The notes beneath the pieces are model-generated. The model was not told where the DNA came from and ran no database searches. It saw only the letters and a program-made list of their open reading frames with translations. Shown one piece after another: positions 25,684 through 44,587 of a stretch of DNA of 49,528 bases; within the stretch, counting starts at the first letter, position 1, and each line of letters starts with the position of its first letter. This stretch comes from Candidatus Thermoplasmatota archaeon (GTDB taxonomy: Archaea; Thermoplasmatota; SW-10-69-26; JACQPN01; JAIVGT01): NCBI GenBank assembly GCA_035541015.1, contig DATLFM010000096.1, forward strand, positions 1 through 49,528, given 5' to 3'. A program made the position numbers and the translations under genes.

Positions 25684-25705
25684 TTCCTGCGCACGTGCGC
25701 AGGAA
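25684..25705. repeat. 22-bp perfect palindrome, copy 1
   Basis: The half-site TTCCTGCGCAC is followed directly by its exact reverse complement. It sits between the hisS stop and the promoter of the FAD/Fe-S oxidase gene. A near-identical palindrome with a TA centre occurs at 32844-32865 upstream of the VOC gene. It could be a transcription-factor operator, or the hisS terminator stem. Confidence 0.6.
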
Positions 25706-34597: not shown

Positions 34598-35536
34598 ATG
34601 CGAGCGATGGCTGGGTTCCGTCCGTTGGTCTTGTGCGCGGTGTTTTCGTTGCTCTTGGCGCCCGCGGCGTCCGGGTTCTTCAACGACGACGACTACCACG
34701 AGGTGGTCCTTTTCACGTGGGACGAGTCGACGCTCGACGTCGTCATCGTTCCGCCGATTCACCCGTTGGTTACGTACCGCGTCGAGGCCGTGAAGCAGAG
34801 CGTGCAGGCGTGGCAGGACGGCATCGACGAGATCGGCGGCTGGCTGTCGGGCCGCGTGGTCCTCAACACGTTCACGATCGGCGACGTGGCCACGCCCACG
34901 ATCGACCACGTGGCCGATCCCGAGGTGATCGTGCTTCTGTCCACGGAGCCGGGCGTGCTTGGCATCGGCATCCCGTGGGACTTCTTCGTCTGCGAGTTTG
35001 CGTTTGGCGAGTCCCCGTATTCCCTCCCGGCGGCCTTCGAGCGGGCGCTTGCAGGCGCCCACCAGCACGAGGGCTCGCCGTGGGCCGTGTTCCGGGCGTC
35101 CTCGTGCCGCGACTCGACGGAGAACGTCTGCTTTGTCGTCAACACGAACTGGATGATGTACCAGAACGGGATGTACGATCTCAACGCGCACGAGTTCGGG
35201 CACTGCCTTGGCATCGGGCACGTCGGCGACGCCGGCGACTTCAAAGCGAAGAAGTTTCCCGCCACGGACATCATGAGCTACCAGCACGACCCCAATCGCG
35301 TGCACTGCGTAAGCACGCTCAACATCCTGGCGATCCAAGTGGCCTTCGCCGGCGTGCTCGGCGAGACGCCGCCGCCCACGGAAAGTCCCTCCTGGCGCTC
35401 GTGGCGCGTGTTCGTGCGGCAGGCGCCGGCGGACTACGGGCAGGTGTCGTGCCTGAATCCGCCTTACGCGCCGCTCGACGAGTGCCAGTGGGATTTGATT
35501 CCACGGCTCAATTGCCAGTTCGTAGCTCCGAACTAG
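34598..35536 (+). CDS. Secreted metzincin-type zinc metalloprotease
   Basis: 312 residues from ATG 34598 (second ATG at 34607). The signal peptide is FRPLVLCAVFSLLLAPAASG. The catalytic zinc motif LNAHEFGHCLGIGHVGD (HExxHxxGxxH) lies near residue 203, followed by the Met-turn DIMSYQHD near residue 227, which together define a metzincin. Paired cysteines (for example SSCRDSTENVC) suggest disulfides outside the cell. No prodomain with a cysteine switch is evident. A hairpin terminator follows at 35578-35611. Confidence 0.83.
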   Translation: MRAMAGFRPLVLCAVFSLLLAPAASGFFNDDDYHEVVLFTWDESTLDVVIVPPIHPLVTYRVEAVKQSVQAWQDGIDEIGGWLSGRVVLNTFTIGDVATPTIDHVADPEVIVLLSTEPGVLGIGIPWDFFVCEFAFGESPYSLPAAFERALAGAHQHEGSPWAVFRASSCRDSTENVCFVVNTNWMMYQNGMYDLNAHEFGHCLGIGHVGDAGDFKAKKFPATDIMSYQHDPNRVHCVSTLNILAIQVAFAGVLGETPPPTESPSWRSWRVFVRQAPADYGQVSCLNPPYAPLDECQWDLIPRLNCQFVAPN

Positions 35537-35577
35537 GCCATCCAAGGGCTGTCGAAAAGGGCGGGGAGAGGGAGGCA

Positions 35578-35611
35578 GCCGCCGGTCCTCGAAGGCAGGA
35601 CGACCGGCGGC
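35578..35611. terminator. Hairpin terminator downstream of mini zinc ribbon 1
   Basis: GCCGCCGGTC-N14-GACCGGCGGC is a perfect 10-bp stem in the gap between the convergent protease stop (35536) and the zinc-ribbon stop (35620). A similar GC-rich stem follows the paralogous gene at 35873-35904. Confidence 0.5.
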
Positions 35612-35619
35612 CGTTGGCG

Positions 35620-35754
35620 TCAGGCGGGAAGCGGCGCCGGGCCGCCGACGAGGCCCGCGAACCGGCAGGTCCAGCAGGCCACGACCACCGTGGCCACGGG
35701 GGCGGTCGCGAGGATCCGCCCGCAGTGCAGGCATTGCACGTTCGCAGCTTCCAT
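35620..35754 (-). CDS. Mini zinc ribbon protein 1 (44 aa)
   Basis: Found by direct translation. The protein starts MEAANVQCLHCGRILATAPV and continues with a hydrophobic run ATVVVACWTCRFAGLVGG. Two C-x2-C pairs (CLHC and CWTC) form a rubredoxin-like zinc ribbon with a short loop. It is a paralogue of the 44-residue protein at 35932-36066: same length, same CWxCRFAGLV core. A TATA-like TTTCATATCC about 25-30 nt upstream makes it leaderless, and a 10-bp stem follows its stop. Function unknown. Confidence 0.72.
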   Translation of the reverse strand: MEAANVQCLHCGRILATAPVATVVVACWTCRFAGLVGGPAPLPA

Positions 35755-35872
35755 GGTAATCCCATGGCATGCGCGAGGATATGAAACGCCATCGTCGTCC
35801 TTGGTCCGCGCGGCAACCGGATGGTTGTACGGGGCAAGGAGGGGAGGTTCGAACGGGGAGGGAAGAAGGAGT

Positions 35873-35904
35873 CCCGCCGGCTCACGGGAGGGAAAGCCGG
35901 CGGG
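35873..35904. terminator. Hairpin terminator downstream of mini zinc ribbon 2
   Basis: CCCGCCGGCT-N12-AGCCGGCGGG is a perfect 10-bp stem starting 28 nt after the stop of the 35932-36066 gene. It shares the GCCGG core with the stem behind the paralogue. Confidence 0.5.
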
Positions 35905-35931
35905 GAGGCTTCGGGGGTTTGTCGTCGCGCC

Positions 35932-36066
35932 CTACAGGTGGGTCTGCGTGGCGCGTACCAGTCCTGCGAACCGGCAAGACCAGCATTGGAGGATCGGAGC
36001 CGCCGAGCCCACGTTGCGCGCCACGAGGACGCCGCATTGCGTGCAGCAGAGGTCCGCTCCTTCCAT
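35932..36066 (-). CDS. Mini zinc ribbon protein 2 (44 aa)
   Basis: The protein begins MEGADLCCTQCGVLVARN and has LQCWSCRFAGLVRATQTHL at its end. Pairs CTQC and CWSC mirror CLHC and CWTC of the paralogue at 35620-35754, and both share Gly after the first pair and RFAGLV after the second. A TATA-like CTTATC at about 36087-36092 precedes ATG 36066 by about 22-26 nt. Longer upstream frames exist but are antisense to the sugar dehydrogenase. Possible roles include small regulators or adaptor subunits, which is speculation. Confidence 0.72.
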   Translation of the reverse strand: MEGADLCCTQCGVLVARNVGSAAPILQCWSCRFAGLVRATQTHL

Positions 36067-36158
36067 GGATGCCCGTTGGCCTTCGTGCGAGATAAGCAGA
36101 GTGGTCGGACTCTTTGAGGGGGGCAACCGAAAGGTTGCGCGGCGACGACAACGGGTTG

Positions 36159-37346
36159 CTACCGGAGGAGCGCCGAGGGAAGCTTCGTGGAGCCGGCCTC
36201 GAAGCGGTGGAGGGAGCCGCCGTGGTCGACCACGTAGAGCTCGCCGGCCTCGTCCTCGCCAAAGGACGTGATGCGAAGCTGCGTGCGGAGGATGGGCTCG
36301 CCGCGCCATTCTCCGCCCACGCCGCGAAGGCCCCACACGGTGCCGGTGCAATAGTCGGCGAAGAGGTACACGCCGCGCAGCGCGGGAACCTGCGCGCCCC
36401 GGTAGACGTACCCTCCCGTGACGGCGCACGTGCCGGCCTGGCGCAGCGGGTAGGTGAACACGGGGAAGGTCGCCTCCGTGGCGGTCTCGCCGGAGCGGTG
36501 GCGCGTGGTTCCCTCCCAGACGTTCCAGCCGTAGTTTCGCCCGGCGGCCGAGGCGGCGGGGACGTGGTTCACCTCCTCCGTCCGGTCCTGGCCGACGTCG
36601 GCGATCCAGGCGTCGCCGGTTTGCCGGTCGAACGAGAAGCGCCACGGGTTGCGAAGCCCCAAGGCCCAGACCTCGCCCGCGAATCCCGAGCGGCCCACGA
36701 AGGGGTTGTCGCGGGGAACCTCGTACGAAGCGCCCGAGACGTCAAGCCGCAGGATCGAGCCAAGGAGCGTGGCGGGATTCTGTCCATGCCCTTGCGGGTC
36801 GCCGCCGCTTCCGCCGTCGCCCAGGCCCGCGTACAGCATGCCGTCGGGGCCAAAGAGGACAAGCCCGCCGTTGTGGTTGGCAAAGGGCTGATCGACCGAG
36901 AGGATCACGCGGCCGCTTGCGGCGTCGGCGCGGTCCGGATCGTCCGCGCGGACGAGGAAACGCTCGATCGCCGTGTCGCCGCGCGCGTCCGTGTAGCTTG
37001 CAAAGAAGCGGCGGTTGCGCGCAAAGTCCGGATCGAACGCGATCGAAAGAAGCCCCTGTTCGCCGCCGCTTCGGACCTTGTCGCGAAGGTCGAGGAACGG
37101 CCGCGCCCCCACGCGCCCTTCGGCGAGGATCTTGACGAGGCCGCCCTGCTCCACGACGAAGAGGCGGCCGGTGCCGTCGTGGGGCGAGACGATCTGGATG
37201 GGTGACGAGAGGCCCGTGGCGACGCGGACGAGCTCGAAGCCCGCCTCCGGGTCCGGCCCGGGACCGCCCGGCGGCGGAGAGCCGGGGGGCGGGCCCAGGC
37301 AGCCGGAAAGCGCAAGGACGACGGCAAGCGCCGTCGCTCGCGTCAC
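36159..37346 (-). CDS. Lipoprotein PQQ-dependent sugar dehydrogenase-like beta-propeller
   Basis: 395 residues from GTG 37346, overlapping the TrmJ stop (GTGA). The lipobox LALSGCLG near residue 15 is followed by a Pro/Gly-rich tether, so the enzyme should sit on the outer face of the membrane. Family landmarks are GLSSPIQIVSPHDGTGRLFV, GGEQGLLSIAFDPDF, FANHNGGLVLFGPDGMLYAG with GDGGSGGDPQ, and GLRNPWRFSFDRQTG. These match soluble glucose/aldose sugar dehydrogenases that bind PQQ and calcium. Substrate and cofactor use in this archaeon are inferred from the family. Confidence 0.87.
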   Translation of the reverse strand: MTRATALAVVLALSGCLGPPPGSPPPGGPGPDPEAGFELVRVATGLSSPIQIVSPHDGTGRLFVVEQGGLVKILAEGRVGARPFLDLRDKVRSGGEQGLLSIAFDPDFARNRRFFASYTDARGDTAIERFLVRADDPDRADAASGRVILSVDQPFANHNGGLVLFGPDGMLYAGLGDGGSGGDPQGHGQNPATLLGSILRLDVSGASYEVPRDNPFVGRSGFAGEVWALGLRNPWRFSFDRQTGDAWIADVGQDRTEEVNHVPAASAAGRNYGWNVWEGTTRHRSGETATEATFPVFTYPLRQAGTCAVTGGYVYRGAQVPALRGVYLFADYCTGTVWGLRGVGGEWRGEPILRTQLRITSFGEDEAGELYVVDHGGSLHRFEAGSTKLPSALLR

Positions 37347-44224: not shown

Positions 44225-44529
44225 GGTCCCGACACGGGCGGGACCTTCGACAGCTCGCCGGGCGAGAGCGCGACCGCCTTCTTCCACACCCACGCGCCGT
44301 GCTCCTTCGCAACCTCCTCCACGCGGGGCGCAAGGTCGGCCGGAAGCAAGAGCACGTTGCGGCGCAGGAGAAGGTGGGGCTTGCCCGCAAGAAGGCCCGG
44401 GCGCTCGCGGCCGCGGTCCGTCCAGCCAAAGAGCGCGCGCTGGAGGCGGTTCATGGAGGTGCGCGAGGCGGCGGGCGGGTGCCCGTAGACGAGGACGAAG
44501 CCGGCGGCCATCGTGCGATGAATGTTCAT
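44221..44529 (-). CDS. Unknown small basic protein
   Basis: 102 residues if ATG 44529 is used (MNIHRTMAAGF); ATG 44511 would trim six. I do not recognise the family. It begins with a beta-strand-like FVLVYGHPPAASRTSMNRLQ followed by ALFGWTDRGRERPGLLAG, a basic stretch, and VLLLPADLAPRVEEVAKEHG. This pattern suggests a small alpha/beta domain. The start codon lies within the 18-bp palindrome at 44514-44531, which also occurs at 1458. It converges on the peptidase gene with a CTAG overlap. Confidence 0.65.
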   Translation of the reverse strand: MNIHRTMAAGFVLVYGHPPAASRTSMNRLQRALFGWTDRGRERPGLLAGKPHLLLRRNVLLLPADLAPRVEEVAKEHGAWVWKKAVALSPGELSKVPPVSGP

Positions 44530-44531
44530 CG
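44514..44531. repeat. 18-bp palindromic element, copy 2 (TGCGATGAATGTTCATCG)
   Basis: Identical in 18 of 18 positions to 1458-1475. Here it covers the ATG at 44529 of the minus gene and lies about 57 nt upstream of the plus-strand MBL gene at 44588, so it could control either direction. Confidence 0.55.
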
Positions 44532-44587
44532 CAGGCTTGAAGGCTTCGCCGGCAAGCTTCAAGCGCGCCGCGCGGCCTCCCTCGCGC

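Follow-up and report, generated by a model that had tools for sequence, protein, structure and literature searches.

The stretch of DNA analysed here, called the window in the following, is a contig (C96) of 49,528 nucleotides with a G+C content of 68.5%. It belongs to a 2.2-Mb genome bin of an uncultured archaeon that consists of 114 contigs and is 96% complete. Two open reading frames of equal length, each of 44 codons plus a stop, lie in tandem on the minus strand, as a sequence-only reading of the window had described. ORF 1 (35932-36066) would encode a zinc-ribbon-like protein with the pattern C-x2-CG ... C-W-x-C-RFAGLV, and ORF 2 (35620-35754) would encode its paralogue. The shared motif CWxCRFAGLV given in that reading is indeed present in both, but the spacing of the N-terminal motif has to be corrected from ME-x(6)-C-x2-CG to ME-x(5)-C-x2-CG. 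The ORF upstream of the pair, on the same strand, contains a Glucose/Sorbosone dehydrogenase domain and is followed by genes for a SpoU-type RNA methylase and an M50 protease. The closest named relatives of the methylase are mostly found in Thermoplasmata / Thermoplasmatota bins, which makes Thermoplasmatota the probable phylum. Beyond ORF 2, the end of a convergent ORF on the plus strand lies at 35536.

A search of the own genome with ORF 1 recovers ORF 2 at an E value of 5.5e-6 and 46% identity, and 17 of the 43 aligned residues are identical. Protein coding is supported by the use of different codons at six of these 17 residues, four of them within RFAGLV, together with alignment gaps that comprise whole codons only. 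Over the full length of the two ORFs pS is 0.49 and pN 0.38, and the constraint outside the shared motif appears to be weak or mild. The G+C content by codon position in the three ORFs of the family, including a further copy described below, is 0.64/0.56/0.80, 0.71/0.62/0.89 and 0.66/0.56/0.90, which fits the coding pattern of the genome. Long spurious ORFs are abundant in a window of 68.5% G+C, and one could suspect that chance frames in GC-rich DNA have been picked up. This reading is contradicted by the three-copy paralogy and by the common rare promoter element and is highly improbable. The paralogy argues that the ribbon genes are real, and it is likely, as had been proposed, that such short ORFs escape gene callers.

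Upstream elements and 3' stems

A TATA-like box just upstream of each ORF had been claimed and was readily located on the minus strand. The sequences are TTATC for ORF 1 (36091-36095) and CATATCC for ORF 2 (35777-35783), and in both the first base lies 29 nt ahead of the start codon's A. A TATA box about 29 nt before the ATG is what one expects of an archaeal mRNA without a leader, and judged by this spacing the transcripts of ORF 1 and ORF 2 are probably leaderless, with RNA polymerase initiating at or near the ATG. This agrees with a survey of 48 stretches of the same genome (411 rough gene calls in 663 kb), in which the TATA-like words at most 60 nt before a first start codon cluster at a distance of 27-34 nt (17 of 43).

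Further upstream, both genes carry the exact palindrome CAACC-N4-GGTTG, a feature absent from the sequence-only reading, 58 nt before the ATG of ORF 1 (36124-36137) and 60 nt before that of ORF 2 (35814-35827). The exact palindrome occurs at five places in the genome and the reversed control at none. Two of the five sit at ribbon genes and the other three elsewhere, and the palindrome is not exclusive to the ribbon family. Inspection of the remaining places (C15, C36 and C114:4) revealed no link to ribbon genes. The one at C15:4917-4930 is embedded in a longer palindrome, AATTCAACCATTTGGTTGAATT, shortly before a minus-strand ATG, and is possibly another candidate operator, unrelated to the ribbon genes. 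The combination CGGTTGCC-N22-32-TATC was found at four places in the 2.2-Mb genome (reversed control 0), namely at three genes of the family and inside an ORF named by eye as an EamA-like transporter; the spacing range was set after the three sites had been seen, so that this count is descriptive. The similarity score of the upstream regions in the three pairs of family members was reached by 0, 3 and 3 of 1000 shuffles (p <=0.003), the regions of ORF 1 and ORF 2 being more alike than all 1000 shuffles.

An archaeal element directly above the TATA box usually serves activation, and a shared dimeric activator is therefore the simplest reading of the palindrome. Such a dimeric factor would bind CAACC-N4-GGTTG above the TATA box and control the gene set. 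It is also conceivable, as a long shot, that the ribbons form a private, self-controlled regulon, in which their homo- or heterodimers bind the palindrome upstream of the ribbon genes' own promoters and adjust the dosage of a diverging set of paralogues. If true, these self-binding ribbons would represent a minimal (44-residue) lineage-specific family of archaeal transcription factors.

The perfect 10-bp GC-rich stem with a GCCGG core reported 3' of each ORF was found at 35873-35904 behind ORF 1 and at 35578-35611 between ORF 2 and the convergent plus-strand ORF. Compared to shuffled sequences, the fold z-scores are -2.51 for the ORF 1 stem and -3.84 for the ORF 2 stem. Past each stem, on the minus strand, lies a pyrimidine-rich, putatively terminator-like tract (35855-35872 for ORF 1, 35560-35577 for ORF 2). 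Perfect stems that have 10 bp or more and loops of 3-14 nt are not rare as such, with four in the window versus a mean of 1.9 and a maximum of 4 in 30 Markov-1 sequences; yet two of the four stand directly behind ORF 1 and ORF 2. Perfect stems with 10 or more pairs occur 43 times in the 48 genome stretches, and in seven cases 13-14 of the 14 adjoining bases on one side are pyrimidines. The stems of ORF 1 and ORF 2 are two of these seven, and it looks as if the combination of stem and pyrimidine tract is used elsewhere in the same genome too. From this order of stem and tract we infer that the stems may act as transcription terminators, behind which transcription would end.

A third copy and the search for relatives

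A third member of the family, a likely ORF of 61 codons with the sequence CCGRCG...CYRCRQRFAGGVV, is located on another contig (C114:8095-8280). Within the own genome it was matched at E 0.009 with a single protein and at E 0.0025 with a two-row profile; the E value of 2.4e-16 that it reached in the profile search of the phylum is no evidence, the copy itself having been in that profile. The four cysteines and RFAG are invariant across the three copies. The cysteine pattern of the third copy fits only with a shift of two residues between CxxC and RFAG, and its membership rests for this reason on promoter and profile together. Its promoter shows the same half-site (the right half of the palindrome only) and a TATA box. 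A chromate transporter, which is divergent, and a YdjM-like protein are its neighbours on the other strand. A further match in the genome (C66:3498-3620, E 0.245) was dismissed as chance. At C114 8078-8098, upstream of the third ribbon ORF, a frame of six codons begins with an ATG whose distance from the TATA box is nearly that of a leaderless start, and the TGA of this frame overlaps the ATG of that ORF (ATGA). It is possibly a candidate leaderless leader peptide coupled to the third ribbon gene.

The view that a whole transcription unit had been duplicated is supported for the tandem pair, in which promoter, ORF and 3' stem are alike, but not for the family at large, since the member elsewhere keeps the promoter and not the stem. 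In a shuffle test the region behind ORF 1 resembles that behind ORF 2 (p = 0.017), and that of the third copy is unlike both (p 0.644 and 0.421), its 3' palindrome being unrelated to their stems. In the tandem pair, the duplicated unit would comprise the palindromic element, the TATA box, the ORF and the 3' stem with its pyrimidine tract; tandem duplication is able to carry along a very short ORF together with its promoter and its 3' stem.

Stable stems, and the presence of dispersed palindrome families in the same genome, would also suit a unit that acts as a regulatory RNA, or a palindrome-bearing element that has spread, the ORFs being incidental. We regard this as very unlikely: the differences within the invariant peptide motif are synonymous, gaps are in-frame only, the third copy retains ORF and promoter without the 3' stem, and Rfam 15 covariance models gave no match at E <= 1 over 35500-36250.

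Relatives were sought at several levels. A profile search revealed no convincing orthologue in the 388 other genomes of the phylum sample and no convincing relative in six other genomes of the same class. At phylum level (389 genomes including the own), three genomes had a match at E <= 0.001, the own among them, and the two others were not counted, both being partial (E 4.8e-4 over 15 positions and E 8.4e-4 inside a 988-residue frame). At class level, three of seven genomes including the own had a match at E <= 0.1, and the other two matches were again partial. A search with the single protein yielded matches at E <= 1 in 20 of 60 genomes (own included); the best one outside the own genome, E 0.008, crosses a stop codon and was thus taken as noise. 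Peptide-pattern searches gave 60 matches in genome_contigs and 30 in viral_contigs, none of which was confirmed, and tblastn of ORF 1 against phages and plasmids gave none at E <= 0.1. Six sugar-dehydrogenase/methylase loci in relatives were inspected for synteny and contained one Cys-rich ORF of unrelated sequence. The absence from the sole other genome of the same family is weak evidence, because that genome is 76% complete. As far as searched, the ribbon genes appear lineage-restricted.

The sequence-only reading had named missing conservation in relatives as a finding that would speak against the genes. No convincing relative was found, yet the paralogues within the genome support coding; given the outcome among the 388 other genomes of the phylum sample, this support comes from within-genome paralogy without orthologues.

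Kind of protein and likely role

Searches of Pfam and NCBIfam gave no match above the curated cut-off, and PHROGs none at E <= 0.001. The best family below threshold was DmmA-like (17.2 bits versus a cut-off of 27.4; 18.8 versus 60), and the best PHROGs match had an E value of 0.079. An AlphaFold2 model from the two-row alignment predicts five short strands (mean pLDDT 73, pTM 0.50) and is compatible with a zinc ribbon, although such models reportedly cannot tell whether four cysteines are set for metal (PMC11241148). A fold search of the PDB returned nothing at E <= 0.001, the best matches being zinc-bearing parts of helicases and polymerases at E 0.75 and above.

CPxCG-related proteins have been defined by a length of less than 100 residues, a CxxCG pattern and a second Cys/His pair with 2-3 residues between, located 7-40 residues away (PMC2253796). 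The three predicted proteins are 44, 44 and 61 residues long, start the putative finger with CTQCG, CLHCG and CGRCG, and, some 12-16 residues behind this pattern, continue with CWSC, CWTC and CYRC. By their predicted sequences they fall under the sequence part of this published definition of small zinc-finger proteins. The kind is already known, namely the small archaeal CPxCG-related zinc-finger proteins such as Brz, HVO_0758 and HVO_2753, and what appears to be new here is a lineage-restricted member. The ribbon set opens no new kind of system. Literature searches on small archaeal zinc ribbons and on Thermoplasmatota turned up no description of the three-gene set, which is not proof that there is none.

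Brz (OE3104F) of Halobacterium salinarum likewise has less than 100 residues, a CxxCG paired with a second Cys pattern and a short gene of its own (PMC2253796). The proteins described here are shorter, have CWxC followed by RFAGLV as second pattern and belong to another lineage; the likeness meant here is one of definition. HVO_0758 and HVO_2753 of Haloferax volcanii are also small, single proteins that carry C(P)XCG motifs, and the HVO_0758 transcript is reported to be leaderless (PMC10716476), as the spacing suggests for the present genes. They differ from the present proteins in length (56 and 59 residues), and here three paralogues with a common upstream element lie in one genome; HVO_0758 moreover has a 3'-UTR of about 200 nt, in contrast to a stem close to the stop codon.

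Published accounts give a first idea of function. Brz is described as required for bop transcription (PMC2253796), deletion of HVO_0758 is reported to alter 108 genes more than twofold (PMC10716476), and 12 of 16 deletion mutants of such small zinc-finger proteins had a phenotype (PMC6562870). In our best explanation, for which we hold somewhat better than even confidence, ORF 1 and ORF 2 are co-regulated leaderless genes that were duplicated as units, the third copy is controlled as part of the same set, and the zinc ribbons are small regulators or adaptors like Brz. The tandem, monocistronic and probably leaderless genes would encode 44-residue single zinc-ribbon proteins, whose four cysteines would hold one metal ion. 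By analogy, a regulator or adaptor role of the products is most likely, and they may act on nucleic acid or protein, as the Brz and HVO_0758 deletion mutants indicate.

The ribbons might instead be accessory parts of the ribosome or of RNA polymerase. Weak sequence likeness to S27e, and of the third copy to L37Ae, points in this direction, as do a match to chain 9fhl_C, a small zinc finger protein resembling HVO-2753 (E 0.33), and fold matches, among them small subunits of RNA polymerase and a 50S protein of 44 residues, whose E values all exceed 1. All these scores fall short of significance. The likeness to the zinc ribbons of S27e, L37Ae and the DmmA C-terminus is weak and local around the first CxxC, with scores below the curated cut-offs and a misfit of lengths and other positions. 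Absence from relatives argues against a component of a conserved machine, three diverged copies would be unusual for one, and we consider this role unlikely.

Proteins with two C(P)XCG motifs need not bind zinc: nine of 14 produced did, and five of the 14 Haloferax proteins were zinc-free, three of these holding another metal (PMC11241148). The ORFs could accordingly encode proteins that bind iron, some different metal or no metal at all and serve redox or metal homeostasis, and the chromate transporter divergent from the third copy hints at metal stress. The genes next to the tandem pair (for a sugar dehydrogenase, a SpoU methylase and an M50 protease) are without a metal theme, and such a function seems quite doubtful.

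Small archaeal zinc-finger proteins are numerous and their function is mostly unassigned. Three paralogues with a common rare upstream element offer a connection between proteins of this kind and a cis site that can be put to the test.

Dispersed palindromes in the same genome

Two further palindromes are dispersed in this genome and were both found at no place in six other genomes of the class. The first, ACTGCGCA-NN-TGCGCAGT, often in the form TTACTGCGCA-NN-TGCGCAGTAA, occurs at 26 places (reversed control 0). One copy (C114:8303-8324) supplies the 3' hairpin of the third ribbon gene, and shorter relatives lie in the window at 25687 and 32847. Eight of nine sampled copies are outside rough gene calls, four of these between divergent genes, and the palindrome is possibly the operator of a genome-wide regulator. 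The second, GCGATGA-N4-TCATCGC, occurs at 37 places (control 0), including 44515-44532 of the window. Of 15 sampled copies, five are flanked by convergent rough gene calls and none by divergent ones, and several copies overlap a stop codon whose TGA belongs to the palindrome. It is perhaps a two-way terminator or a REP-like element. A perfect 27-bp inverted repeat also occupies the start of contig C54 (1-68), which is an artefact of the assembly or else a genuine hairpin at which the assembly was interrupted.
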